Virus record (IMG/VR): IMGVR_UViG_3300025154_000210 | Span: 1-40,802 of that record | From: a virus | Strand: one strand, 5' to 3' | DNA: 40,802 bases | Part shown: positions 3,589-40,802 of the stretch, in pieces | How the letters are laid out: each line of letters starts with the position of its first letter | Position numbering within the stretch: the stretch's first letter is position 1 | Notes under the pieces: model-generated | Database searches by the model: none | What the model was told of the DNA's origin: nothing | What the model saw: the letters and a program-made list of their open reading frames with translations, nothing else | Program-made: the position numbers and the translations under genes

Positions 3589-4956
3589 ATGAAGCTTCAT
3601 AAGTTAGATATTGATAGATTTATAAAATTAAATGGATTAAAAGAGATAACTAGTATGAATTTTTTAGATAAAGGTATGGTTACAGAAGATGGTTTATTTA
3701 GTTCATCCATTTTTGGATTTTCAACTAATGAACGTAAGTCTATACCTGCATATATTAATCTTAAAGGAAAATATCTACACCCACTTACATATAATATCTT
3801 AAAATCATTAAATCGAAAATTTGAATCATTAATTATGGGAATAAAATATTTTAAAATTACAGATAAGGGGGAACTGATAGAAGATCCAACTGGAGAAACA
3901 GGATTAGATTTTCTATATAGGGAATGGGATAAAATAGATTTTAAAGATACTAAATCAATCTTCAATACTGAAAAAATTAAAAATATTAAAGATATAAATA
4001 TAGCTTGGATAGATAAATTAATTGTATTGCCAGCATTCTATCGAGATATAAATTTTAATGATGAAAAACGACCATCATATGATGAAATAAATGAAAAATA
4101 TATCAATTTAATTAGGATGGCTCATAATATATATCAACAAGAGCAGTATAATTTCATAACAAATCAATCTAAGGCCAGAATACAATTAATAATAAATGAT
4201 ATTCATGATACTCTAATAAATTCACATCTAAAGACAAAACATGGTACATTTAAAAAGAATGTAATGGGTAAGAATATAGATCTTGGTGCTAGGTTAGTTA
4301 TATCTGCTCCAGACATTAGGGGAGAAACATATAAAGATTTACAGGTTAGGTTTAATTACATGGGAGTTCCATTAGCAACTGTATGTTCTATCTTTTTTCC
4401 ATTTGTATTATATGGCATACGAGAATATTTTTATAATGAATTTATATACGGTGGATTAAAATACCCGTATAAAACGGTAGAAGGCGAGATTCAATATGTG
4501 ACACTTATAGATCCAGAAATACATTTTTCAGACGAATATTTTATTAAGAGAATTAAGAAATTTATATTTGGACCAGATACACGGTTTGAAACTATAGATA
4601 TACCAGAAAATAAAGAAGGTTTAAAATTAAAATTAAATATATCTGGAAAATTTGGTAAAGAGAATACAAGTATATCTAGAAATGCGACATGGACGGATAT
4701 ATTATTTATCATATGCAATAAAGTGATTGAAGATAGATATATATATGCAACAAGATACCCAGTTGATAATATAAATAGTATAAACCCATCTAAAATAAGC
4801 GTACTTACGACAAAAAATACAATGCCAGCTTTAATCGGAACTGAATATTATAAATTCTATCCGATAATTGAGTCTGATAAAGATAGTAGTCGAAAGTTTA
4901 TAGACACGTTAATTGTCGGTAACGCATACCTGTCGTCATATGGAGGAGACTACGAT
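3589..4956 (+). CDS. RNA polymerase beta-prime N-terminal half, exon 1
   Basis: Residues 1-456 of a phage multisubunit RNA polymerase subunit. The start is the ATG at 3589, preceded by AAAGGAGAT; an ATG at 3556 lacks a ribosome site. Residues 221-241 contain FKKNVMGKNIDLGARLV, matching the bacterial beta-prime signature N-x-L-G-K-R-V-D-Y-S-G-R-S-V. The exon ends in NAYLSSYGGDYD (445-456), the first part of the metal-binding NADFDGD motif. Unspliced, the frame would close at 4992 after 12 intron-coded residues, losing the active site. Splicing to 5389 restores D-Y-D-G-D. The gene sits behind a late-type promoter, so I infer it belongs to the virion polymerase. No N-terminal zinc ribbon is present, unlike in the paralogue at 39737. 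Confidence 0.85.
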
Positions 4957-5388
4957 AAGTTATACTTGTCGCCTTTAAGAAGAAATTCTTAATTGAATAA
5001 TCTGTCTAATTGCTGGAACCCACTAAGAGCCTCTATGCCTATAGTTTACTATAGGAACGAAAGTAGAAATAAGTTAGAGGATGTCCTATGGTGATAGTAA
5101 GCCTAAGGGATATTAACAATGGGGAATCAAGCAGCGAAATCTAATCTGAAAAGATTAGTAATCGTTCAACGACTATCCGAAAGCTACTATATAATAGTAG
5201 TGAGTAGTCCTGAAATGGGCATTAGGAGTACGGCCTAAGCAGGTGGGTGAGAATCCCTTAAATGGAAATGGCAGAACTCTAACGAATAGTAATATTCTAT
5301 GAGTAATGATATAGTCTCGACTTCTAGGGAAAACCTAGAGAAGTTCATAAGAGAACTGCATAGATTAGCGACCTATGTGAAGATACCG
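4957..5388 (+). ncRNA. Group I intron inside the RNA polymerase active-site motif
   Basis: 432 nt without an endonuclease gene. The 5' exon ends in T and the intron ends in G, as group I introns require. CGAT at the exon end (4953-4956) can pair with GTCG (4968-4971) to form P1 with the U.G pair at the splice site. ACT at 4964-4966 can pair with the GGT that begins exon 2, as P10. Core elements are visible: GTTCAACGACTATC (R region; P7 strand GACTAT at 5171-5176) and GATATAGTC (S region; P7 complement ATAGTC at 5311-5316). Also visible are a P8-like hairpin at 5184-5200 and a P9-like hairpin at 5321-5343. The core resembles the phage IA subgroup. Exon frames join precisely, giving Asp-Gly-Asp across the junction. 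Confidence 0.87.
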
Positions 5389-5610
5389 GGTGATATGCTA
5401 TCTGTAATAGGCTTATTTACAAATGAGGCAAATGAGAATGCCAAAAAATTTACTGAGAGTAAAATGAATATTATCAATCTCACCAATGAAAATATGCGCA
5501 CTATTCAGCGCGACTTTGTTCAAACGATATATGCATTTACAAAACACCCGACTAGTAAGAATAACGACATTCCGAGCTTTAAAAACTTATCCAGATCTTA
5601 TAACTTTTAA
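5389..5610 (+). CDS. RNA polymerase beta-prime N-terminal half, exon 2
   Basis: Exon 2 adds 73 residues to exon 1 for a spliced product of about 529 residues. It begins GDMLSV, supplying the third catalytic aspartate (D458 of the spliced protein, after D454 and D456). It continues with a helical segment (LFTNEANENAKKFTESK) equivalent to the region after the catalytic loop in beta-prime. An ATG at 5299 can extend this frame upstream, but those 30 codons are intron sequence containing the P9 hairpin and have no ribosome site. They should not be annotated as protein. The gene ends 3 nt before a bidirectional terminator. Confidence 0.85.
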   Translation, partial: GDMLSVIGLFTNEANENAKKFTESKMNIINLTNENMRTIQRDFVQTIYAFTKHPTSKNNDIPSFKNLSRSYNF

Positions 5611-5613
5611 AAA

Positions 5614-5644
5614 AAGAGAGATAGCTAAAATAGCTATCTCTCTT
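5614..5644. terminator. Bidirectional terminator between convergent operons
   Basis: A 14-bp inverted repeat AAGAGAGATAGCTA / TAGCTATCTCTCTT with a 3-nt loop. A run of T lies on the reverse-strand side and a weaker one on the forward side. It separates the rightward RNA polymerase gene from the leftward small-protein operon. Confidence 0.8.
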
Positions 5645-5653
5645 ATTCGCATC

Positions 5654-6405: not shown

Positions 6406-7095
6406 TTAACGACTCGTTTGTGTAATCTTTCTCATCGGAGTTGGGCTAATCTGTGAGGGATTACTTTTTGGAGATTGTAGTACTTCCACAGGTTGCCTAT
6501 CCTCAATCAATTCCTCTTTTACAGGTTCGGGAATATTTGTAGTATCTATATCATCTTTTAATAATGTATCGACTACAATCCCGTCCTTAAGATTCACCTC
6601 ATTTATAATTGGAATATCTATAAGCTTCGCACTACTTTTTAATATAGCAGCTTCCAAAATTTCAGCATCTGATGTAACTAAAATTGGTTCGACTAGTTCA
6701 GTATAAGAAGATTTCACAAATGTCTCTTCTATAACTTCCATATCTTTAAAAATTTTAGAAACTTCTTCAACTGTGGGAGTAAGCTCATCGACGGCCTTAC
6801 TTGTCTGAATAAGTTCCTCGACTTCAGTTTCCCATGGGAAAATCTTATCTGGGTTTTCTTCTTTCCATAGTTCAATAAATGGTTTTTTATAATTCTGAGA
6901 AGTCAATTTAACTCTCATAGATTTGTCTTTTTCATATGCCTCATACATTTTTGTAACACCAGACATATTAATCAGTTTACCAATCGTCGTCAATGGAAAT
7001 TTGGACGGCATTAATACCGGACTTTGAAAGTTATATCCGATCGCATTCAACGTGCGACCTATGTCCTCGATGATAATATATTTAGTTTGTTCCAT
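6406..7095 (-). CDS. Unknown protein with acidic, disordered C-terminal part
   Basis: The start is the ATG at 7095 behind GGGGAG. A longer frame to 7143 overlaps the upstream gene and lacks a ribosome site, so I reject it. The product has 229 residues. About 100 N-terminal residues look folded (EDIGRTLNAIGYNF, then an aromatic region with EELWKEENPD-like charge). The remainder is acidic, rich in E, V and P, ends in a basic tail and is probably disordered. It is the last gene of a three-gene leftward unit after a likely virion protein. Function unknown. Confidence 0.65.
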   Translation of the reverse strand: MEQTKYIIIEDIGRTLNAIGYNFQSPVLMPSKFPLTTIGKLINMSGVTKMYEAYEKDKSMRVKLTSQNYKKPFIELWKEENPDKIFPWETEVEELIQTSKAVDELTPTVEEVSKIFKDMEVIEETFVKSSYTELVEPILVTSDAEILEAAILKSSAKLIDIPIINEVNLKDGIVVDTLLKDDIDTTNIPEPVKEELIEDRQPVEVLQSPKSNPSQISPTPMRKITQTSR

Positions 7096-7117
7096 GTTAA
7101 AATACTCCCCTTTATTT

Positions 7118-7423
7118 TTATATTTTTTCCAAAATAGTCTCATGTGTAGCTATATAGTCATCCAGCTCTTTCGAACTCATACTTAGTATATCCAACATAT
7201 TAAATTCGCTAGATATATGTTTAAAAGAATTCTCAATATCATCTAATTCTTTATCTGTGACATTTGTTAAATCGTCTCCCATTATTGAATCGACTTCTTG
7301 TAAATTAAGTGTAAGACCATCGTCATCATCCATGATAACATCTTCAGCCATTTCACATATAGTATTATTATGATCTCTATTAATACTTCGTTTTCGTCTC
7401 TCCTCTGATAATAACTCAAACAA
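7118..7423 (-). CDS. Small acidic protein, unknown
   Basis: A TTG start at 7423 has AAGGAGG in good position. The 101-residue product is strongly acidic, with a DDDDG run near residue 33, and predicted helical. It lies 22 nt upstream of the 229-residue gene. An AACA-N6-TA motif on the reverse strand ends 46 nt upstream. No family recognised; the acidity could mean an assembly or chaperone-like partner, but this is conjecture. Confidence 0.6.
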   Translation of the reverse strand: MFELLSEERRKRSINRDHNNTICEMAEDVIMDDDDGLTLNLQEVDSIMGDDLTNVTDKELDDIENSFKHISSEFNMLDILSMSSKELDDYIATHETILEKI

Positions 7424-7468
7424 TGTAATAGCACCTCCTTATACTATAACTATGCGTAATAAATACGT

Positions 7469-7480
7469 TATTTAGATGTT
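7469..7480 (-). promoter_or_regulatory. Possible late promoter AACA-N6-TA, leftward
   Basis: On the reverse strand AACA (7480-7477), six bases, TA (7470-7469). It overlaps the end of the preceding coding region and lies 46 nt before the TTG at 7423. Could be chance in such AT-rich DNA. Confidence 0.3.
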
Positions 7481-8704
7481 ACGCCCAGCTTGTAATGATT
7501 TAATTTTTATCTTAAGAATTACTAATATTAATGGTATAAAATAATATCGAAACAAATCAGTTACATTATAATCATCTATACTATTTTCAAATTCTGTGGC
7601 TGTGATTTCTACACCATTGATAAATTTTGAGATTACTAATTCTATTGGAGTTACATTGATATAATCTTTATTGATTATTTTATCTATAAATATACTATTA
7701 TATAATAGTATTTCTTTATATCCTATAATATATGAAGCTTCATCTACTTTTGGTATAAATTTAAACCCAATTGACTGCTCTATTGTTTCATCATATACCT
7801 CTTTAAATAGTGATACTGGAAATTCCTTAAAGCTAATATACATAGAACCAGATGTTAATGTCTTTTTAATAAATGGCAATAATGGAAATGATCTGTTATA
7901 TATTTTATTATGAACAGACGTAAATGGCAATACATCTTCAAATGCAAATATAGATTCTAATATCTCATCAAAATATATAACTCTATTTGTCATTAAATAT
8001 TTCATTAAATATTTACAAGTTCCAAATCCTATAATATCCGATAACCATTCTGGTGTTTTTAAATAGCTGATTTCTTCATCATAATTTTCATCAATATATC
8101 TTTCATGAATAATCCTATATGATTCCATATAATTTCTAAGATCGTTATAGTCTGATTGTCGTATTAGAACATTATCTTCAGTTCCAATATTCTTAAATAG
8201 AACATTATAATTTTCAATTACTTGTAATTCAATATTTTTTATTCTAGATGTTTGCACTACAGCATAGCTTATTATATAATGATCCCGTCCTCTAATCGCA
8301 CGTATCTTTACTTCTGTTATAGCAAAAATAATTTCAGTATTAAAATCTGGAATAATAAAATGATCACCAGGTAATGGTTTTAATACTGATTCTAGACATA
8401 ATCCATCATCTTCAAATTCTGTATATACCCCTAATGTTTCATCATATGAGATTTCGGCTGTTATAGCATTTAATGAATATAATGGCATACTAGTTATTTT
8501 TTTAAACTTAACAGGTGAATCCGTATTGACATAATCCATTATGTCTCTTGTTCCAATTTCTGTAGTTGAGTTTACCTCATCTATTGAATAATATGTAACA
8601 AATGATGGAGTTGAATCTAATAGTCTAGAAAATTGAGATAATAATCTATCTTTATGAACTTGAGATTGTGTCTCTATTAATTTCTGGACATTAAGAACTT
8701 TCAT
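7472..8704 (-). CDS. Probable virion structural protein
   Basis: ATG at 8704 behind AGGAGTG gives 410 residues; an ATG 33 nt upstream lacks a ribosome site. The N-terminus (TPSFVTYYSIDEVNSTTE, about residues 28-45) and the later KPLPGDHFII segment resemble a conserved large protein I recall from Firmicutes jumbo phages, usually annotated as virion structure. The fold looks mixed beta with a hydrophobic C-terminal end. It precedes two small genes that may be expressed with it. No catalytic motif is visible. Confidence 0.55.
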   Translation of the reverse strand: MKVLNVQKLIETQSQVHKDRLLSQFSRLLDSTPSFVTYYSIDEVNSTTEIGTRDIMDYVNTDSPVKFKKITSMPLYSLNAITAEISYDETLGVYTEFEDDGLCLESVLKPLPGDHFIIPDFNTEIIFAITEVKIRAIRGRDHYIISYAVVQTSRIKNIELQVIENYNVLFKNIGTEDNVLIRQSDYNDLRNYMESYRIIHERYIDENYDEEISYLKTPEWLSDIIGFGTCKYLMKYLMTNRVIYFDEILESIFAFEDVLPFTSVHNKIYNRSFPLLPFIKKTLTSGSMYISFKEFPVSLFKEVYDETIEQSIGFKFIPKVDEASYIIGYKEILLYNSIFIDKIINKDYINVTPIELVISKFINGVEITATEFENSIDDYNVTDLFRYYFIPLILVILKIKIKSLQAGRNI

Positions 8705-16130: not shown

Positions 16131-16883
16131 CTATATTCGTTTACATTTTGAATACCCATCCTTATAACTTTCACATGGAATAATAATCCCATTGGCAAGC
16201 ATAACCAATTTATCTATGCCAGCTGTGCATTTTCCACTAGAGAATGGCAATCCGATTTTTACAACATCATAATATTTTTTAAACAAATAGTTTATTTGTT
16301 CCTTTAAAATTCTGTCATCTAATATAAGATACTGGTTATTAAAACATCGTCCTTGATTTACTAGTTTTAATAATTTTATCTCTTTAATTCCTATACTTAT
16401 TAAATATTGAATAGTATCATCTAATGAATATATATTGACAGTTGTTGGGACTATATGAATTGATACATTCATATTAAATTTTAAAGCAGCATCAATACTG
16501 AGCATAGTCTCTGAATATGAGTTAGTATCTGCCATAAAATTAAATATATTACGCCTGTCGCTATGGACTGGAAAAACAATCGTATTGATTGCATATTTAT
16601 ATGATGATATATTTTCTATCTCAGCTATAGAATAACCATATCCTGATGTATATAAATTTACTTTTATATTTTTACGGTTTAAATATTCTAGTAATTCATA
16701 TACCCTTAGATATAACATAGGTTCTCCTCCGCTAATATTTACATATTCCGGATTATATTTATCTATAGTATCTTTTATTACGCCAATATCCAAAATATCC
16801 ACCCTATTTGGATCGGCATAAGATGAACAATGCAAACATTTATTAAAGCATTTATTTGTCAGTTCGAAAGTTATTTCTTTCAT
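16131..16883 (-). CDS. Radical SAM enzyme
   Basis: ATG at 16883 with AAAGGAT upstream; 250 residues. C12-x3-C16-x2-C19 (CFNKCLHC) binds the [4Fe-4S] cluster that cleaves S-adenosylmethionine, and GGEP at 52-55 is the SAM-binding motif. The rest fits a partial TIM barrel (VNISGGEPML, then NIKVNLYTSG, then NVSIHIVPTT). C-terminal cysteines in GKCTAG and IIPCESY recall a shortened SPASM domain, as in enzymes that modify peptides or RNA. The substrate is unknown. It heads a leftward unit of small cysteine-containing proteins. It is not QueE by its context. Confidence 0.85.
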   Translation of the reverse strand: MKEITFELTNKCFNKCLHCSSYADPNRVDILDIGVIKDTIDKYNPEYVNISGGEPMLYLRVYELLEYLNRKNIKVNLYTSGYGYSIAEIENISSYKYAINTIVFPVHSDRRNIFNFMADTNSYSETMLSIDAALKFNMNVSIHIVPTTVNIYSLDDTIQYLISIGIKEIKLLKLVNQGRCFNNQYLILDDRILKEQINYLFKKYYDVVKIGLPFSSGKCTAGIDKLVMLANGIIIPCESYKDGYSKCKRI

Positions 16884-16917
16884 AGTCAATCATCCTTTCT
16901 TATATAACTATATATAA

Positions 16918-19306: not shown

Positions 19307-21031
19307 TCAATCTAATGTTCCTTCAAATTCCAACTGATCAGTTAATATTGTATTAGTTGTAGCTAATAGTAATGCCACATCCAATGATTTTTGAATGATA
19401 TTAATATCTGTTTTTGCTGGATTCAATATTTGATGACCATCACCTCTTAAATCGATTGGGTATAATAGAGGTTTTCCATCGGTTATTAATATTTTATCAT
19501 TCATATCATCATAATTAGTTTCAAAATTTGGTCCCATTATAATTTTCATTATTTCAATATCTTCAATATTTGCACTATTAGAAATCAATTTCTTATATAC
19601 ATCAACATAAGCTTCAAGAATTACCATTTCAAGATGATAATAAATTGAAGGATTTCCTTTATCGATTTCTAGCTGAGAATACATCATCTGAGATAATGTA
19701 TTTGGAACTGTCGTATTACATCCATAAAAATATCCATATGCTAAGGTAGATTGTAATGCTTTTAATCCATCTTCAGCTAATCTATATAAAATACTCTTGC
19801 GTTGTGGAGAATCTCCACCAATGAATAATGTGGTGACCCCATCTTTCAATTTATGATATCTAGTTAATAAGGAATTCTTTTGAATTGTTAGTTTTGACAC
19901 AGTATCTGAATCTAGTTGCCCAGAAGTTAACTGGTTTGATATATCTATCATATCAGTATTTAATCCATCTAGATACTCAATAAATGAATCGGATTGCGTA
20001 AATCCTCCTAGTGTGATTCTATTATTTTTAATAACAACTCTTGAAGCCTCTCCCTTAATTAGCTGATCGATAGAGTCTGTTGATATTTCTGTATTTTCTT
20101 GAAGATATCCACAATTTGTTATATTTAAAATATCATAAAATGTATCTTTATCCATAATAGTATTAGCAGTACTATATGCCACACAGAAATTTTTCAATAA
20201 TTCTGGTTGACTCTTATGAATTCCCTCGATATATCTATAAAAGTTTTCATTAACTCCACTACATATGACAAGCAATGATTTATTATGAACCTTTAGCTTA
20301 TTAACATAGGTTAATATATCATTCATGATATTTACTTTACCATCGATAATTAATATCTCCACATTTTGTAAATTACATTCTACGTCATTTTTATTTCCAA
20401 ATGCTTTATTCATCAATTTTCCATATAGTTCTACGCCTTGAACGGTTTTAAAATAGCTCACATTTGTAGAACTGTAGTCAATCAAAATATTCTTATTTGC
20501 AATATTATCTACATTCTTGTATAAATCAAATAGCGTATCAGTCAAATCTTTATTTGCATCAGTAGAAGTGTGAATTACATCCTTAACTTCTGCATCTTCT
20601 GAAATCTTAAAAGAATATTCAGTTAATCGTTTAATCAATTCGTGTTGGATTTGCTGCATTGCATCATATATTTCGGAATTTGTATATTTATCCCATAACA
20701 CTTCATCATTTCGTAATCTGCTATATACGGCTGCTGCAATTAAAATTGCTGAACTCGTTCCATCCCCAACATCGTTAGCCTGACTAGCTGCTACATTCAT
20801 AAGCATTTGATGGATAGCTCTAGGAATAGTTCCATCCATTTTAATCATCGTTAAATTCTCAAGCCCATCTTTCGATGCTCTAATTTCTGCACCATTTAAG
20901 AAGATATTATGCGTACCACCAGGACCAAATGTGGAACTAATTACGCTAATGATTAATTTTAATGTATGATCTACCGTATTATGAAAAAGATAAGGTTGTG
21001 AGATATTTGAGTGAAAATATTGTCTGTTCAA
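19307..21031 (-). CDS. GroEL-like (Hsp60) chaperonin
   Basis: The start is the TTG at 21031, preceded by AAAGGGG; a longer frame to 21097 overlaps the upstream gene and is rejected. 574 residues, against about 545 for bacterial GroEL. TFGPGG (34-39) and ANDVGDGTSSA (86-95) are the nucleotide-binding signatures of the equatorial domain; the aspartate of GDGT coordinates ATP hydrolysis. The middle is poorly conserved, as expected of a diverged apical domain. No co-chaperonin gene is seen nearby. AR9 and some other jumbo phages carry such single-gene chaperonins. It likely folds large phage proteins. It is in the leftward unit that starts at 23099. Confidence 0.88.
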   Translation of the reverse strand: MNRQYFHSNISQPYLFHNTVDHTLKLIISVISSTFGPGGTHNIFLNGAEIRASKDGLENLTMIKMDGTIPRAIHQMLMNVAASQANDVGDGTSSAILIAAAVYSRLRNDEVLWDKYTNSEIYDAMQQIQHELIKRLTEYSFKISEDAEVKDVIHTSTDANKDLTDTLFDLYKNVDNIANKNILIDYSSTNVSYFKTVQGVELYGKLMNKAFGNKNDVECNLQNVEILIIDGKVNIMNDILTYVNKLKVHNKSLLVICSGVNENFYRYIEGIHKSQPELLKNFCVAYSTANTIMDKDTFYDILNITNCGYLQENTEISTDSIDQLIKGEASRVVIKNNRITLGGFTQSDSFIEYLDGLNTDMIDISNQLTSGQLDSDTVSKLTIQKNSLLTRYHKLKDGVTTLFIGGDSPQRKSILYRLAEDGLKALQSTLAYGYFYGCNTTVPNTLSQMMYSQLEIDKGNPSIYYHLEMVILEAYVDVYKKLISNSANIEDIEIMKIIMGPNFETNYDDMNDKILITDGKPLLYPIDLRGDGHQILNPAKTDINIIQKSLDVALLLATTNTILTDQLEFEGTLD

Positions 21032-21059
21032 TGTAAAAATCCCCTTTATTAATGTATTT

Positions 21060-21710
21060 TTAAAATAGATCCATAAACGCCAAATCGAACATGTCATTTT
21101 CTTTTAACTCGAATATTTCTGGATATAGACTTGTAAATGTGTCATTTTCCCTTTTAAAATTATAACTTAATTTTGATATAATAAATGTCATTCCTTTTAT
21201 ATTGATATCTGCTTTAGTAATTAAATTATATGCCATACCCATATCATGTAAGAATATTGATGTTATTCCATTATCATTAATAAATTTTGCCACTTTATCA
21301 ATATCAAATATATCAAAAAAAGATTGTAAGCAGGCCGTATATACAGCTTCACCATTAAAATATTTTGGTGATGCTATATAAACTTTATTTGTAAATTCTT
21401 GTTTTGATAATATGGTAGCAATTGTAGATATATTTGTCATAGGAGATAGATATGAAATATCATAAAATTTTTTATTAATAACCTGTAAATATTCCTCATT
21501 CGTTATTATTGGGTCTAGCAATTTAGCTGGGCATTTAATGAGTGTGTTTAATACAAGATTTAGTATTTTATGCTGGTCTAGGAGATATAATTCATTATCT
21601 CCCAAACCAGCCGTTTTCATCAACTCAATAAATCCCATACTTTGAAGTAGTATGGTATTATAATTCAAGAAAAGAATATTTTCTTTATCTATATTATATA
21701 TTGAGTTCAT
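21060..21710 (-). CDS. Unknown protein upstream of the chaperonin (216 residues)
   Basis: ATG at 21710 with AAAAGGATG upstream. The fold appears alpha/beta (NKVYIASPKYF, TSIFLHDMGMAYNLI, KGMTFIISKL). A phosphatase- or nucleotide-like Rossmann arrangement is possible but no catalytic motif is intact. It lies 28 nt before the chaperonin start and may be a partner or substrate of it. No family recognised. Confidence 0.6.
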   Translation of the reverse strand: MNSIYNIDKENILFLNYNTILLQSMGFIELMKTAGLGDNELYLLDQHKILNLVLNTLIKCPAKLLDPIITNEEYLQVINKKFYDISYLSPMTNISTIATILSKQEFTNKVYIASPKYFNGEAVYTACLQSFFDIFDIDKVAKFINDNGITSIFLHDMGMAYNLITKADINIKGMTFIISKLSYNFKRENDTFTSLYPEIFELKENDMFDLAFMDLF

Positions 21711-33059: not shown

Positions 33060-33683
33060 CTATTTTTTTACATATTTCTTTACTAGATCTAGTATTTCAT
33101 ATATTCCATTATCTGTAGCACTGAATGTTTTAGATAAATCTAAATATTCTTTTATTATTCCAATATGCTCTTTACTTACACCTTTTTTATACTTTTTTAA
33201 GAATTTTTCTAATTGTCCAAATCCTTGTTTAAATGATACAAATATTGATCCGTTTTCTGCAGCTTCATGGCATGTTTCACATAACATTACTAGCTGTATA
33301 TGATGCTTTTCATGCTCGATTAATACCTTATTTGCAACTATAAAGCTATTAACCAGCTTCTCTTCAGCTAATAAGTGATCTGTGACAATAGTACATATAT
33401 CAAACATACTAAATATTGGCCCATGGTGCATTTCTATTGGGGCCATTTCAGAGTTTATACCATGATGAAATTGGCATTTATCTAATCCTATTTTATATAG
33501 TTCTGATTTATAATTAGTATATCTCAAATCATGCCTAACTGTTGATTTAACTTTATTGATGAATTGACAAAATAGTTCATAATCTGATAGATCCTTTCTA
33601 GTTAAATAGTATTTTAAAACTGCTTCACTATCTACTGCTATAATTTTAGGATTTTTAGTTCCAACTGTTTCAAATTGATCCAT
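33060..33683 (-). CDS. HNH-like phage protein with zinc cysteines
   Basis: ATG at 33683 behind GTAGGAGG; 207 residues. DKCQFHHG (C70), APIEMHHGPI (H86, H87) and VMLCETCHEAAENG (C135, C138, H139) give a zinc-stabilised HNH/beta-beta-alpha-metal layout more complete than in the relative at 24744. That makes nuclease activity more plausible here. It is a family I recall from large phages. It runs opposite to its neighbours as a two-gene island, as homing-type elements often do. Confidence 0.6.
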   Translation of the reverse strand: MDQFETVGTKNPKIIAVDSEAVLKYYLTRKDLSDYELFCQFINKVKSTVRHDLRYTNYKSELYKIGLDKCQFHHGINSEMAPIEMHHGPIFSMFDICTIVTDHLLAEEKLVNSFIVANKVLIEHEKHHIQLVMLCETCHEAAENGSIFVSFKQGFGQLEKFLKKYKKGVSKEHIGIIKEYLDLSKTFSATDNGIYEILDLVKKYVKK

Positions 33684-33733
33684 ATTTCAATGCCTCCTAC
33701 TTTAAAGTTTATGTATTATATTTATATCTGGAA

Positions 33734-33745
33734 AACAAAAAGATA
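33734..33745 (+). promoter_or_regulatory. Candidate late promoter AACA-N6-TA
   Basis: AACA (33734-33737), AAAAGA, TA (33744-33745). It lies 45 nt before the ATG of the virion operon. Confidence 0.5.
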
Positions 33746-33789
33746 ATATAGTTTATTACTTGTTTAATATAAATAAGGTAGGTGATAGC

Positions 33790-36027
33790 ATGGATGACTT
33801 ATTACTCGATCAAGCATATGTCATGGGAATTTCTAATGATTTAATAACTTTTATATCTAGTATTATAATAAAACGGGAGGATCTAGCTTCTAAATATGAA
33901 ACATTGAATACTTTAAAAAATTATGATTTATATCTATCAGCATATACTAAAACAGACAGATTCGAAACATATGAAACATTCGATGAACAAGTACTGATTG
34001 ACGCTGGATTGACGACAGAAGAAGTGGCATTAGCATTACAATTTAAAATGAATATACCAAGCGATAAGAGAGATGCTGTCGTTTTATTGCAAAGAGCCAA
34101 AATATTGGATGAATATATCGAATCTAATAACTATTATAGAATGCTGTATGGATTACCTGCAAACGAAGACTACTTAAATATTTATATTGAAGATACAATA
34201 GTTGGCGTTAATACAACACTACCAGTTCATAGTATGTCTAGTAGTGAGATAGATATATTATCGGCATTAGGATATATAGATAAGTTAATAGTGCAATATC
34301 CAACTCGTCCATATCTAAGATATCTTGGAGATAATAAAATTAATTTTATTATAGCTAGAACAGCTAAAAGGTTTGAAATTATACAATCTGGAGAAATGTC
34401 TAATATATTCATTAAAAATCGATTTAATATAAATTATGAACTATCCAGGGCATATATATTAAATAACTATTATAAAAAAAGATTTTCGATAGATCAAACA
34501 TATTTTGATGCATATATAGGATTCATTATATTAATTAATAGTATTGTAATGACTATTAATGAATCACTAGATATATTTAATAAGAAAGAATATTTCAATG
34601 AAGTAATGGTTAAAGAAATATTACAGTCCCACAATCTTAATATATTTGATGATATACCATTATCATATAGAAGAAAAATAGTGGATAATATAGAATCATT
34701 GATTGTGTCTAAAGGAACTGATGAAGTTCTTTTTAAGATATTTAAAATATTTGGATTCGATGATATCTCAGTCAAGAAGTTCCTACTAATAAAGCAACAT
34801 AAAAAAGATATTAATGGAAAGTATATATTTAGCTATGAAGCGGATCTCGTTACTCCAAAATATAATGAGATGTTTGATATCGAATTTGCACAAGTTGATA
34901 TTAAGTCAACTAACATCGATGCCGAAATACGAAAGCCGGAAAATAAGTTAGTATATACAGATATAACTAATAATGATATATATTGGGGTGGCTATGAGAC
35001 TGACGAGGCCATAAGACAAAAACTACTTAAAGAAAATTTTAACTATATCAATACTGATTATATCAATATCGATATTGCATATGCATTATCTAACTTATCA
35101 TTTGAAGTTACATATTTCTTTTCAATGTGTTTGGCATTGAAGGATTCCTTTAAAAAACTGCTATTAATAGAACCAATATTTGGACAAGAAATTAGTTTAT
35201 TTTATTCGATAACTATGCTAACAGCATTATTAAGTAAAAAATCTGGATTTACCGGAAATATAATAACAAATCCTGAAGATATTGCAGTTATTTATAAATT
35301 TAATTTTGATAGAAGTTTAACCGAAATAAATAATATAATGAAAAAATATGGGTATACATCATCTTCAAACTATGCTCCATTGTTGCCTACTAGTGAGTAT
35401 ACTAAGACATCGGATCTAGTAGATCTATATTTTAGAAATAAAGAGATATATGATCTATTGGTTAAAGTAAAAACATCTACTCGCAATTATAAGGAATATC
35501 TAGCAATACGAAATTTATTAGAATATACAATGCAATCAAAACTATCTTCTAATGTTTATAAAAAATCAGATGGTTCGATTGCAACGACATATATAGATTA
35601 TTTATATGATGAAAATATATTAATAGCTAATTATATTGAGACAATAGCTATCTCCGATATCGATTCTGCGGTATTAAAAATATTAACAGCATTGGAAGAT
35701 TACATTCAAACTGACAGATTTCAATATTTATTTTTAAATATATCATCATCATCTGGAAGTGATGTATTTATGAAATATATATTGAAAATACTATCAGTAT
35801 TTAAAGCATTTACTATTAATATATTCTCAATGACCACTACATATAATATTGATAGCTATCTAAATAATATTAAAATAATAGATAAAAACTATACTGAAGG
35901 TAATGTATTCTCGCATAATAATATAACACTGACAGACACATTGCAGGTTAGTACAACTTTAACTTCTGAAGAGCGGTTTTTAATCAACGATAAATTGGAA
36001 ATTATAGACTCATTAGAGTATTTATAG
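33790..36027 (+). CDS. Large virion protein, probably baseplate
   Basis: The start is the ATG at 33790 (GGTAGGTG upstream); a frame to 33760 has no better site. 745 residues. Blocks NYYRMLYGLPANEDYL, YLRYLGDNKINFIIAR and SKGTDEVLFKIFKIFGFDDISV match a family of large structural proteins I recall from jumbo phages, where the last block resembles baseplate or tail components. Mainly helical. It begins the late operon that continues with another virion-like protein and the RNA polymerase C-half. Confidence 0.6.
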   Translation: MDDLLLDQAYVMGISNDLITFISSIIIKREDLASKYETLNTLKNYDLYLSAYTKTDRFETYETFDEQVLIDAGLTTEEVALALQFKMNIPSDKRDAVVLLQRAKILDEYIESNNYYRMLYGLPANEDYLNIYIEDTIVGVNTTLPVHSMSSSEIDILSALGYIDKLIVQYPTRPYLRYLGDNKINFIIARTAKRFEIIQSGEMSNIFIKNRFNINYELSRAYILNNYYKKRFSIDQTYFDAYIGFIILINSIVMTINESLDIFNKKEYFNEVMVKEILQSHNLNIFDDIPLSYRRKIVDNIESLIVSKGTDEVLFKIFKIFGFDDISVKKFLLIKQHKKDINGKYIFSYEADLVTPKYNEMFDIEFAQVDIKSTNIDAEIRKPENKLVYTDITNNDIYWGGYETDEAIRQKLLKENFNYINTDYINIDIAYALSNLSFEVTYFFSMCLALKDSFKKLLLIEPIFGQEISLFYSITMLTALLSKKSGFTGNIITNPEDIAVIYKFNFDRSLTEINNIMKKYGYTSSSNYAPLLPTSEYTKTSDLVDLYFRNKEIYDLLVKVKTSTRNYKEYLAIRNLLEYTMQSKLSSNVYKKSDGSIATTYIDYLYDENILIANYIETIAISDIDSAVLKILTALEDYIQTDRFQYLFLNISSSSGSDVFMKYILKILSVFKAFTINIFSMTTTYNIDSYLNNIKIIDKNYTEGNVFSHNNITLTDTLQVSTTLTSEERFLINDKLEIIDSLEYL

Positions 36028-36053
36028 AATAATATGAAAAGGGGATTGTTAAT

Positions 36054-36869
36054 ATGGGCGAGATTATAGAAAAATTAGGATTATCAGAGGAACTTTTCAT
36101 AAATGGAAAGCTAGAATCCTCAAGAGGAAAACACGAATCTAAGCTCATAGGCGTTGTTGAAGTATATAATGGATTAACTGGTAGTAAACTATTTACATTT
36201 AATGATGTTATATTACCAGGAGCAACTTATGTATTAGAGCAGTTTTTTAAAAAGAGATCGACCTTTGCAATGACAACACTATCTACCGATCTTGGAATTA
36301 AAGCAGATATTGCTATTACACAAGAAAATCTTAAAAATGAATTAACATTTGGGTTTGTTGTCGGAATTGGTGGAAGTGATTCTGCCAATCTGATTAAAGC
36401 TGTTAAGTTTAAAGATAAATCTGTAGATACTATTGTTCCATTACGAGTTGTTCCAATTACTGCTGACTTATCTGCATCAGATCAAGCAAAATATGCTCTA
36501 AAGAAGACTGTCGGTTCCAATTATTATTATTATGCTAAAAAATTTGATACAGATATCGTAATACGTCATCTATTTACAGATGGAACTGAGATACCTCCAA
36601 ATATTAATGAGACTGATACAAATCTTGGGCTATTAGTATTTGGAGAAATGGTATTTACAATCTCGACTGCTGATTTAAGAGAATATTTTATAAATGTATA
36701 CGGAAATATTGATAATTGCAGATTTAATTCTATTGGTCTAGTTACAGGATTCTTAGATGGTACTGACTATGCCGGAGTTAGAGTAACAACTAAAATAAAT
36801 TTAAGAGACTTATACCTATCTAATAGCGAAAATTATTTTCGTTTTATCTACAAATTATATAGCATTTAA
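36054..36869 (+). CDS. Probable virion protein (tail or baseplate)
   Basis: ATG at 36054 behind AAGGGGA; 271 residues. A beta-rich protein with glycine turns (GFVVGIGGSDS, RFNSIGLVTGFLDGTDYAG) and a strand-rich end, a style common to tail-surface and baseplate proteins of large phages. It lies 26 nt after the 745-residue gene and 48 nt before the polymerase gene, all in one late unit. No enzyme motif. Confidence 0.55.
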   Translation: MGEIIEKLGLSEELFINGKLESSRGKHESKLIGVVEVYNGLTGSKLFTFNDVILPGATYVLEQFFKKRSTFAMTTLSTDLGIKADIAITQENLKNELTFGFVVGIGGSDSANLIKAVKFKDKSVDTIVPLRVVPITADLSASDQAKYALKKTVGSNYYYYAKKFDTDIVIRHLFTDGTEIPPNINETDTNLGLLVFGEMVFTISTADLREYFINVYGNIDNCRFNSIGLVTGFLDGTDYAGVRVTTKINLRDLYLSNSENYFRFIYKLYSI

Positions 36870-36917
36870 TGTATAAAAGTTATGAAATATGATCGCTAAA
36901 AAAGGAGACTTGAGGAT

Positions 36918-38114
36918 ATGAGACTATTGACTAATGCTGAAATAGATGAAGTATTAAAAATACGCCATACAGATATTACAAATACCCTATTTAAATCGTA
37001 TTTTGGACGAACTATTAAACATCCTATATCTAGATTTAAAGTAACTGATTATTTTCATATCCCAGAAAATACTTGTAGTAATAATATAGCTGGAGTAACT
37101 ACTATTGCATTATATCTATTCAATAGATTGGTAACTGACAAATATCTATCGGATATTGTTGGTTATGTTAATGTACCAGTTACTAATAAAATTATGAAAA
37201 AAATCTATGAATTAATATCACAAGCATTCTATGCCAATAAGATTATATCTGAACAATTTTTTGAATTAATCGATATTTTTGAATGGTTAGGTGGATCTGA
37301 TATATCAGAACTAATAAATGTGTCATTTTCTAGTAAGATGTTTTCATTACCTCCAGATATACAAAAACGTCGAGAAGAATTATTTGATAAATATGATAAA
37401 GAATTTAAAGCTGGTGATGTCATAATAGCATCTAAGGTTGAAAAAGAATTAATAAATTTATCAAAGGATTATATGTCAAAATTGCCAGAAAATGATAATT
37501 TTGCATCTGGCTCTAAACTAGATTTTGAAAATCACTATAAAACAATGGTATTAATGAAAGGTCCGATATTAAATACTGGAACTGGAAAATGGGAGATAGC
37601 AAAATCAAATTACGATACTGGAATATCTAAGGAAGAATATTCGTTATTTGCAAATAGTGCAACCTCTGGAATATATAGTCGGGCAAAGGGTGTTGCTGTT
37701 GGTGGATATGAAAGTAAAAAGATTATAGCAACATTGCAGGATGTTTCGATAGCTGAGGAAGGCTCTGATTGTAAAACGACTGATTATCTAGAAATATTAG
37801 TCGATCCATATTTTAAAAATGAATTATTATATTTGTATATGGTTGAAGGTACAAAACTTAAACTATTAACTCCAGATAATTTTGATCAATATGTGTGGAA
37901 GAAGATAAAATTTAGGTCGCCTATGTATTGCAAATGGGAAGTTCCTAATATCTGTAGTAAATGCGTTGGAACTCATCCATATACATTAGGAATGACTACT
38001 ATAGGATTAGCAACCACCAGGATAAGTGAAACGCTCAAAACTAAGAGTTTAAAATCATTCCATGAAAAGACAGTCCATCTTTATAAAATCACATTAGATG
38101 ACTTATTTAAATAA
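36918..38114 (+). CDS. RNA polymerase beta-prime C-terminal half
   Basis: ATG at 36918 behind AAAGGAG; 398 residues. MVLMKGPILNTGTG (210-223), then ANSATSGIYSRAKGVAVGGY (245-264) and ATLQDVSIAEEGSDC (271-285), correspond to the bridge-helix/trigger-loop part of bacterial beta-prime (N-x-L-R-G, D-T-A-x-x-T-A-x-x-G-Y-x-x-R-R). C285, C338, C346 and C349 make the C-terminal zinc cluster (FRSPMYC, CSKC). ETLKTKSLKSFH (371-382) matches the E-P-x-T-Q-L-T-x-R-T-F-H block. It pairs with an N-half; its place in the late virion operon points to the virion polymerase, so the intron-split gene is the likely partner. Confidence 0.85.
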   Translation: MRLLTNAEIDEVLKIRHTDITNTLFKSYFGRTIKHPISRFKVTDYFHIPENTCSNNIAGVTTIALYLFNRLVTDKYLSDIVGYVNVPVTNKIMKKIYELISQAFYANKIISEQFFELIDIFEWLGGSDISELINVSFSSKMFSLPPDIQKRREELFDKYDKEFKAGDVIIASKVEKELINLSKDYMSKLPENDNFASGSKLDFENHYKTMVLMKGPILNTGTGKWEIAKSNYDTGISKEEYSLFANSATSGIYSRAKGVAVGGYESKKIIATLQDVSIAEEGSDCKTTDYLEILVDPYFKNELLYLYMVEGTKLKLLTPDNFDQYVWKKIKFRSPMYCKWEVPNICSKCVGTHPYTLGMTTIGLATTRISETLKTKSLKSFHEKTVHLYKITLDDLFK

Positions 38115-38118
38115 TAAT

Positions 38119-38150
38119 AAAAGAAGATAGTAATTAAACTATCTTCTTTT
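38119..38150 (+). terminator. Intrinsic terminator
   Basis: A 13-bp stem AAAAGAAGATAGT / ACTATCTTCTTTT with a 6-nt loop, after the polymerase stop. Confidence 0.85.
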
Positions 38151-38178
38151 ATTATTATTCGATATAGGTGAGAATTTT

Positions 38179-38198
38179 AATTATATATTATATATCTA
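38179..38198 (+). promoter_or_regulatory. Early-type promoter
   Basis: AATTATATATTATATATCTA copy of the element, 27 nt before the ATG at 38225. Confidence 0.65.
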
Positions 38199-38224
38199 GA
38201 TTATATATAAGGAGAGTGTTTGAA

Positions 38225-39073
38225 ATGTTAATAACTATTGGCGATCTAAACACAATTTTGGAAAATCATAATAGATGGTTAAGCGATAATCGAATCGGCA
38301 TTCGGGCTGACTTGCGCAAGATGGATTTATGTGGGGCAAACCTACGTAAAGCTGACCTGAAAAAAGCCGACTTACGAATGGCAGATTTACGTTGGGTTAA
38401 TTTAAGTGAATCAGATTTGACTGAAGTAGACCTAAGTGGGGCAAATCTGCATAAAGCAAATCTGAATGGGGCCGATATAGGCAGGGCCAATCTAAGCGGG
38501 GCCAACCTGAGTGAGGCAAATCTGCATAAAGTAAATCTGAATAGGGCAAACCTGAGTGGGGCAAACTTGCATAAAGTAAACCTAAATGGGGCAAACCTGA
38601 GTGGGGCAAATTTGGATGCTGCAAATCTAAGTGAGGCCGACTTATTCTGGGCAGACTTAAGTAATTCGAATTTGCATAAAGCAAGTCTACATGGGGCAAA
38701 CCTAAGTGTTGCAAACTTAGGTGGATCAAATTTAAGCTGGGCAGATCTAGGTGGTGCAACTTTGATTAGAGTAAACTTAAGTGGTTCAAATTTGATTGGG
38801 ACAGATCTGAGCAATGTTGATCTAATTGGCGTAGATCTAAGTGGTGTAAACTTAAATGATGTAATTTCAGATAAAAGATATATCAGTATCTCCCTCATTG
38901 GTAGCCGAAAAGGAACATCTGTCTATTGTTTCAATAATGATCATATATGGTGTGGGTGTTTCAAGGGAAGTTTGGACGATTTCGAACAGGCTATTACTAA
39001 AACACATGCAAATAATAAACAAGCTCTTAAAGAGTATATCGGAATGATTCAGTATATTAGAAGTCTTATTTAA
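38225..39073 (+). CDS. Pentapeptide-repeat protein
   Basis: The start is the ATG at 38225 behind AAGGAGAG; a frame extended upstream to 38168 has no ribosome site and lies over the promoter. 282 residues. About residues 26-215 are pentapeptide repeats of the form A(D/N)LxX (NLSGANLHKANLNGAD and so on), which fold as a four-sided beta-helix and can mimic DNA. The C-terminal 60 residues (VISDKRYISIS, then GTSVYCFNNDHIWCGCFKG) form the cap seen in many such proteins. Gyrase-protecting or -inhibiting relatives (Qnr, McbG, MfpA) are known, but this one is not identified as such. It has its own early promoter and terminator, and GC-rich codons. Confidence 0.87.
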   Translation: MLITIGDLNTILENHNRWLSDNRIGIRADLRKMDLCGANLRKADLKKADLRMADLRWVNLSESDLTEVDLSGANLHKANLNGADIGRANLSGANLSEANLHKVNLNRANLSGANLHKVNLNGANLSGANLDAANLSEADLFWADLSNSNLHKASLHGANLSVANLGGSNLSWADLGGATLIRVNLSGSNLIGTDLSNVDLIGVDLSGVNLNDVISDKRYISISLIGSRKGTSVYCFNNDHIWCGCFKGSLDDFEQAITKTHANNKQALKEYIGMIQYIRSLI

Positions 39074-39077
39074 GTAT

Positions 39078-39109
39078 AAAAAAAGATAGCATCTAAGCTA
39101 TCTTTTTTT
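39078..39109 (+). terminator. Intrinsic terminator
   Basis: A 13-bp stem AAAAAAAGATAGC / GCTATCTTTTTTT with a 6-nt loop and a U run, 5 nt after the pentapeptide stop. Confidence 0.88.
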
Positions 39110-39124
39110 ACATATTCATAAACT

Positions 39125-39145
39125 AATTATATATTATATATGTAG
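39125..39145 (+). promoter_or_regulatory. Early-type promoter
   Basis: Full copy of the element (core TATATTATATATGTAG), 29 nt before the ATG at 39174, and the nearest promoter to the second beta-prime gene. Confidence 0.7.
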
Positions 39146-39173
39146 ATCAACAGAAAGTGAGGTTATTACACTA

Positions 39174-39719
39174 ATGAAGGAAATTATTAGAAAGGTATTT
39201 GAACACTATAATTCTTTAAATTTATCAAATTTTAGTATCAATATCGATTCACTTCAACGAGATACTATGTTTAGGGTTAACTTTATCAATTATAATATAG
39301 TAAGAATGAAAAGTTGCACTGTGGATATTGATAAGATTGATTACTATATCAAGACAAATTTTAATATTATAGAAAAATATATACTTAAAAAAGAAGTATA
39401 TATATTATTTGCAGAAGCTATTGTTATATTCTTACACACACTATCCGATAAATTGACTATAATTAAACAAAATAGGTTATATGATGATGCAGTAGCTATA
39501 TTATTCAGTAATGGAATAGATGATATTCATAATATAGTGGATTCATTTTTAAAAAATCTATATACTGAAGTAATACAAAAATGTGATACAACTGGACGAG
39601 TGTACTCATATCCACGAGATGGACATAGTTCATCATTATTTAGAAAGTATAAAAGATACACACTTAAACGATTTTACTATGTTATATATTACAATTTCGA
39701 TAGTTTACTAATACATTAA
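39174..39719 (+). CDS. Unknown 181-residue protein before the second beta-prime gene
   Basis: ATG at 39174 with GTGAGG upstream. Helical with a basic, tyrosine-rich end (RKYKRYTLKRFYYVIYY). It ends 17 nt before the RNA polymerase gene, so the two are likely cotranscribed from the early-type promoter. A polymerase accessory role would fit that arrangement but nothing in the sequence shows it. No family recognised. Confidence 0.55.
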   Translation: MKEIIRKVFEHYNSLNLSNFSINIDSLQRDTMFRVNFINYNIVRMKSCTVDIDKIDYYIKTNFNIIEKYILKKEVYILFAEAIVIFLHTLSDKLTIIKQNRLYDDAVAILFSNGIDDIHNIVDSFLKNLYTEVIQKCDTTGRVYSYPRDGHSSSLFRKYKRYTLKRFYYVIYYNFDSLLIH

Positions 39720-39736
39720 AAAGGGTGGTGTTTTTA

Positions 39737-40802
39737 TTGATAGAAACTATGTCGAATGGTGATGTTATAGATTTTGGAGATACTAAACAGTTTAAGCTTC
39801 CAAAAATAACGAGATATTTTGATAAGTATGATAGTGTAATTAAAAAAGAAAAATTAGTTAAAGCTAATCTAGATAAGATATCAGATTCTAGATTAAAGAA
39901 AGGTAAAGACTTTTTAATTACAAATCATATAAGTGTAGATAAGAATGGAAATAAAACTGAAGATGGTATATTTTCTCCAAAGTTTGGATTTAGCCAATTT
40001 GATGATCAGGCTGGGACGAAAGATTCATATAGATGCTATTGTGGAAAATTAACAGGGGCTATTTACCTAGATGAATTATGTCCAAACTGTAATACTAAAG
40101 TTAGTTTTGCTGATGCCGATTTATCAATTATGGGTTGGATACCATTGAATGAATATGTTGTAATTAATCCAGCTATGTATACTCATTTGGAATCTCTTAT
40201 TGGTAAAGAAGAATTATATAGTATATTACATTTAACTTCTGCAAAAATGAATGTCGATGGGATAGTTCAAAAGGATATAAATCCGGATAAACCATATGCC
40301 GGAATAGGAATGATGGCCCTATATCAGAATATAGATGAAATCTTAAAATTCTATGTGACTAAAAATTCTAAGTATTCTAACCACTATAAACTATTGATAG
40401 AATATAAAGATTCAATATTCACGCATCATATACCAGTCTATAGTGCGATAATAAGACCAAGAATAGAAAGTAATGAAAAAATACGATTATTTCAAGCAAA
40501 TAAGATATATGATACGATAATGAATCAGTATAACTTAATAAATACCGAAGTTGGTAATATGTTTACTATATTACCTGTATTGTATGAAATACAAACAGAA
40601 TTTAATGAATTGTATGATATTATCATAGATAGCTATTCTGGAAAAGATGGATTATTTAGAGCAAATATGGGAGGAATAAGAATTGATTACGGTTCCAGAA
40701 GTGTAATTGTAAACGGAAAAGATTTAAAGCCAGATGAAATTGATGTTCCATATATTACAGCGATTACATTTTTAGAATTAGAATTGATATACCTATTAGA
40801 AT
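39737..40802 (+). CDS. Second RNA polymerase beta-prime N-terminal half, runs off the window
   Basis: The TTG at 39737 has GGTGG 7 nt upstream; an in-frame ATG lies 12 nt further. 355 codons are visible, with no stop before the edge. GIFSPKFGF (78-85) and the zinc ribbon CYC-x12-C-x2-C (C100, C102, C115, C118) match the beta-prime N-terminus. FRANMGGIRIDYGSRSVIV (307-325) is the conserved N-x-L-G-K-R-V-D-Y-S-G-R-S-V-I-V block. The gene is a paralogue of 3589-5610, not its continuation, because both contain this block. Its catalytic D-x-D-G-D would lie beyond the window. An early-type promoter upstream suggests the non-virion polymerase. Confidence 0.85.
   Translation, partial: MIETMSNGDVIDFGDTKQFKLPKITRYFDKYDSVIKKEKLVKANLDKISDSRLKKGKDFLITNHISVDKNGNKTEDGIFSPKFGFSQFDDQAGTKDSYRCYCGKLTGAIYLDELCPNCNTKVSFADADLSIMGWIPLNEYVVINPAMYTHLESLIGKEELYSILHLTSAKMNVDGIVQKDINPDKPYAGIGMMALYQNIDEILKFYVTKNSKYSNHYKLLIEYKDSIFTHHIPVYSAIIRPRIESNEKIRLFQANKIYDTIMNQYNLINTEVGNMFTILPVLYEIQTEFNELYDIIIDSYSGKDGLFRANMGGIRIDYGSRSVIVNGKDLKPDEIDVPYITAITFLELELIYLLE

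Follow-up and report, generated by a model that had tools for sequence, protein, structure and literature searches.

How does a phage maintain an intron inside the codons that form the catalytic centre of its RNA polymerase, and how could such an element have got there? The question is raised by IMG/VR record IMGVR_UViG_3300025154_000210, an uncultivated virus whose 40,802 nt we call the window. Our answer, given with high confidence, is that the interruption is a group I intron, predicted to splice constitutively, that most likely arrived by homing or spread from one of its sister introns, and that the HNH endonuclease gene of such a sister may move it.

The interrupted virion polymerase gene

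Once its two exons are joined (Table 1), the gene specifies the N-terminal half of the beta' subunit of a multisubunit RNA polymerase. The product matches PHROG 2986 (RNA polymerase beta subunit, E 9e-76), a family recognised through PHROGs and not through Pfam, and tblastn retrieved 277 phage records, headed by jumbo phages of Bacillus, Listeria, Staphylococcus and Yersinia at 33-35% identity. Its counterpart in AR9, g145, consists of three joined exons and carries the annotation of a virion RNA polymerase subunit, and gp145 has been named among the AR9 virion polymerase subunits (PMC5312081). A single-protein scan of viral contigs returned zero relatives and an alignment-based scan retrieved them; likewise, exon 1 alone as a phmmer query found no solved structure, and the family profile retrieved the AR9 non-virion polymerase (7s00/7s01). 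The DYDGD of this profile aligns to the DYDGD of the solved enzyme, and the interrupted motif is therefore the magnesium-binding motif of the catalytic centre, as the preliminary description of the locus had proposed. The likely start codon, ATG 3589, was placed by alignment downstream of AAAGGAGA. An inverted repeat behind exon 2, with T-rich DNA next to it, is probably the transcription terminator of the polymerase gene.

Table 1. Coordinates of the interrupted gene, its intron and other features of the window
Feature	Position	Strand	Remarks
Exon 1	3589..4956	+	ends GAC TAC GAT at 4956 (..GGDYD)
P1 hairpin	4953..4971	+	CGAU^AAGU-UAU-ACUU-GUCG, 8 bp; fold
Group I intron	4957..5388	+	432 nt; free of endonuclease ORFs; in-frame stop follows 11 codons
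P3, 5' strand	5001..5006	+	UCUGUC, pairs GGCAGA 5270-5275; Rfam alignment
P7, 5' strand (guanosine-binding helix)	5171..5176	+	GACUAU, pairs AUAGUC 5311-5316; Rfam alignment and fold
Exon 2	5389..5610	+	opens GGT GAT ATG; GDMLSVIGLF...LSRSYNF; 73 residues and stop
Inverted repeat	5611..5646	+	GAGAGATAGCTA-AAA-TAGCTATCTCTC, T-rich DNA next; probable terminator, read from the sequence
Radical SAM protein	16131-16889
GroEL-like chaperonin	19307-21097
Further RNA polymerase subunit (PHROG 2962)	36918-38114
Pentapeptide-repeat protein	38168-39073

Fold and splice sites of the intron

The preliminary description had assigned the insert to group I from its letters, and a covariance search bears this out. 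Rfam model RF00028 (Intron_gpI) matches positions 4952-5340 with 60.0 bits (E 1.5e-14) in a regional search run with permissive filters, the gathering cut-off being 50 bits. A fast Rfam scan of the whole window at gathering thresholds gave no intron match, a null that, taken alone, would wrongly refute the intron. An unconstrained single-strand fold placed helices at the positions of P1, P2, P6, P7, P7.1/P7.2, P8 and P9 and beat shuffled sequences (z -3.09, 1 of 100). As P3 and P7 make up a pseudoknot, P3 was taken from the Rfam alignment; alignment and fold together contain the P3-P8 core with its guanosine-binding P7. Helices at the places of P7.1 and P7.2, the extra elements that subgroup IA would carry between P7 and P3, appear in the fold, and P7.2 covaries, with several compensatory pair types across 70 introns of the family; subgroup IA is no more than a possible assignment. 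The invariant P7 of that comparison carries no weight as evidence, since the sequences were selected by their P7 motif.

Both predicted splice sites can be placed to the nucleotide. In P1, the U4956.G4968 pair marks the 5' splice site, with GUCG as the internal guide that pairs exon CGAU, and the 3' end is the terminal G5388, fixed by frame and homology; a short P10 (UACU 4963-4966 with GGUG 5389-5392) is possible. The division of the motif into D-Y-D and G-D-M, already read in this way from the letters, is confirmed by two uncultivated phages that read straight across the junction. In one (L174), the uninterrupted gene is 53% identical to residues 5-540 of the spliced 540-residue reading (tblastn); in the other (L022), 58% identical, the motif is likewise unbroken. 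That the spliced frame aligns with both puts the junction far beyond chance and, on sequence comparison, these intron-free alleles are the strongest evidence for the 4956/5389 joint. The covariance match, the junction by homology and the empty alleles are direct observations, from which we infer splicing. With the guide holding U4956 in P1, guanosine would attack behind that nucleotide, and exon 1 would then attack after G5388 to restore D-Y-D-G-D. In the simplest reading, the transcript would be spliced constitutively and the protein left intact.

Unspliced RNA would append KLYLSPLRRNS to exon 1, that is, 11 residues before the stop and not the 12 first counted. As the sequence comes from a virus that is uncultivated, one might suppose a dead insertion and a truncated, non-functional subunit. 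We give that explanation hardly any credence, as P1, P3, P7 and the terminal G are intact, the guide fits its exon, and exon 2 is open and conserved. An ORF at 5299-5610, which begins in the intron and continues through exon 2, has probably arisen incidentally from the conservation of the RNA sequence and from insertion between codons, because sister introns give the same reading. The open-reading-frame list holds zero endonuclease ORFs within the intron, in agreement with the preliminary description, and Pfam recognised no homing endonuclease among the window ORFs scanned, which were all except a few small ones.

Occupied and empty sites in other phages

Placement of the kind seen here had been called typical of homing introns, and the coexistence of occupied and empty alleles among relatives fits that view. 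The second intron of g145 in AR9 and PBS1, whose protein is about 35% identical to that of the window, is also group I (86.7 bits) and interrupts DYD^GD at the identical nucleotide, whereas Goe21, near-identical to AR9/PBS1, has no intron at the site, and L022 and L174 are intron-free as well. The AR9 exon directly upstream of the site is only about 82% identical to that of Goe21 (some 30 of 185 positions differ, nearly all silently), against 98-99% in the flanking exons, which is the mark of co-conversion during homing. The converted exon is flanked by two introns, either of which could have driven the conversion; intron 1 of AR9 g145 belongs to group II.

Beyond their shared position, the two DYD^GD introns differ. 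That of AR9/PBS1 spans 1,889-1,890 nt, holds a Hef-like homing endonuclease and has a divergent core; the window intron is far shorter and free of an endonuclease. In a tree of the 3' core, the window intron joins introns from its own phage and from a related one (support 0.99), and the AR9/PBS1 intron lies far away from this cluster; the site has therefore probably been hit twice, independently, as far as sequence relationships tell. On the strength of this tree we rejected the alternative that the window intron descends from the one that AR9 has at this site. In AR9 (L008), the endonuclease gene of intron 2 apparently lies within the P1 loop, and the guide GUCGUAGU pairs exon ACUACGAU over 8 bp.

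One codon later, at DxDG^D, the gene is broken in Staphylococcus phages MarsHill, Madawaska, Machias, PB50, LY01 and AH12, in Yersinia phage phiR1-37, and in IMG/VR loci L024, L031, L034/L035 and L047. Exon maps of AR9 and of the Staphylococcus jumbo phages combine GenBank annotation with alignments made here. Rfam gave no group I class for some of the inserts at DxDG^D. The introns of Machias (L013), PB50 (L016) and MarsHill (L012) are only 149-158 nt long and group I-like; Rfam searches of MarsHill and Machias reported neither of these two. The U.G pair is replaced in Machias and PB50 by a final exon C that faces a guide A. Two small introns of LY01 (L015, ~7535-8279) divide the motif into D, FDG and D, leaving a 9-nt micro-exon (TTTGACGGT) for FDG. 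Upstream of it lies another micro-exon, of 15 nt (ALGAD), and the annotation of this split gene is limited to truncated hypothetical proteins. Similarly, a 15-nt micro-exon between two introns encodes the motif in AH12 (ADFDG; L006, ~4520-4867) and in L047 (GDFDG; ~7059-7540). The annotated g178 of phiR1-37 (L014/L058) stops at DFDGKF because its intron is unannotated; downstream lie a group I match of 44 bits, below the cut-off, and a second exon.

Phage introns thus land repeatedly in the most conserved codons of multisubunit RNA polymerase. Within the five residues of DxDGD, they occupy three codon boundaries in one phage or another, and the same nucleotide was picked by two introns that seem to be unrelated.

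Sister introns and known mobile introns

The closest kin of the window intron reside in a second polymerase. Contig IMGVR_UViG_3300025010_000081 (L084) overlaps window positions 33512-40802 (7.3 kb) at 99.86% identity and extends past the window; it therefore comes from the same phage or a very near one. Its next gene past the window encodes a second beta' N-terminal subunit (phrog_2987), best matched in the PDB by the AR9 non-virion beta' (7s01, E 2e-26), and is interrupted twice, at GRP^PTL in the RxP motif and at SGDFDG^D. The latter insertion lies one codon downstream of the window's DYD^GD and includes the gene of an HNH endonuclease (PHROG 59, E 9.5e-22). These directly observed sister introns, on L084 and L172, are 80-94% identical to the window intron over parts of their length and form one clade with it (support 0.99), whose members sit in RNA polymerase genes. 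An intron of this type also interrupts the beta' C-terminal gene on a related contig (L104), at a site that we read from the sequence as near the bridge helix; introns near bridge-helix codons (DAKG/DAVGK) of that gene were noted in both L165 (G003) and L104. Guides and exons match intron by intron (CGAU/GUCG, GGCCU/GGGCC, CGGU/GCCG, GGGU/GCCC), and their joint change across the sisters speaks well for functional introns and for correctly placed splice sites.

This kinship bears on whether splicing is regulated. The preliminary description had suggested that it might switch polymerase activity, the active virion polymerase being held back until intron removal. Unspliced RNA would indeed yield a polymerase cut off within its catalytic motif, and with the catalytic codons of both polymerases of the phage interrupted, splicing would gate both. 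Yet the close relatives L022 and L174 manage without the intron, same-type introns are present in many other phage contigs, and a search for regulatory elements, by Rfam, found zero. The idea is without support and seems to us highly improbable, as constitutive self-splicing accounts for everything observed.

The sisters also bear on how the constitutively spliced intron came to its site. An immobile relic, inherited vertically after loss of its endonuclease, would lack an internal ORF and occur patchily among relatives, as the window intron does. That history is nonetheless unlikely, since the partial identity with introns that this phage and a related one carry in other polymerase genes suggests recent spread, and the core is not close to that of the AR9/PBS1 intron at the same site. 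Most likely, the intron arrived through homing driven by an endonuclease, or a sister in the same genome spread to the site. The earlier suggestion of an endonuclease acting in trans has gained a candidate: the HNH gene of the close sister, at the homologous motif of the non-virion polymerase gene, might move the endonuclease-free copy, a plausible role on present sequence grounds, although the virion-polymerase site differs from that of the HNH intron at several bases and is entered one codon away. Mobility and a trans helper, like splicing, are what we infer, and the HNH enzyme encoded in the second polymerase gene may decide whether the window intron is still mobile. A broader scheme, which we put forward only tentatively and consider rather doubtful, is that one intron lineage colonised the catalytic codons of both polymerases, with the HNH copy mobilising the others and both enzymes needing splicing.

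A limited literature search found no description of a phage with sister introns in both of its polymerases, nor of micro-exons at the metal-binding motif. Introns in this polymerase gene have already been reported, and ours is a new example of a known phage-intron habit. Group I and group II introns invade this gene family, according to the relevant passages of PMC12350094; these introns carry endonucleases, unlike that of the window, and their position within the metal-binding motif is not discussed in those passages. Introns without ORFs are known to be moved in trans by endonucleases (PMC3984707). The sister introns in the catalytic codons of the second polymerase make that of the window more notable, and endonuclease-bearing and endonuclease-free sisters at homologous motifs of two polymerases in one phage offer a testable instance of trans mobility. 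The same pair is a testable case of inter-phage endonuclease competition, for which PhiPA3 provides the precedent: there, an intron carries the HNH endonuclease gp210, which nicks the gene of the competitor PhiKZ (PMC11620839). Like the window intron, that of PhiPA3 is group I and interrupts catalytic codons of a virion RNA polymerase directly after conserved aspartates; it sits in beta, whereas ours sits in beta', and it keeps its own endonuclease.
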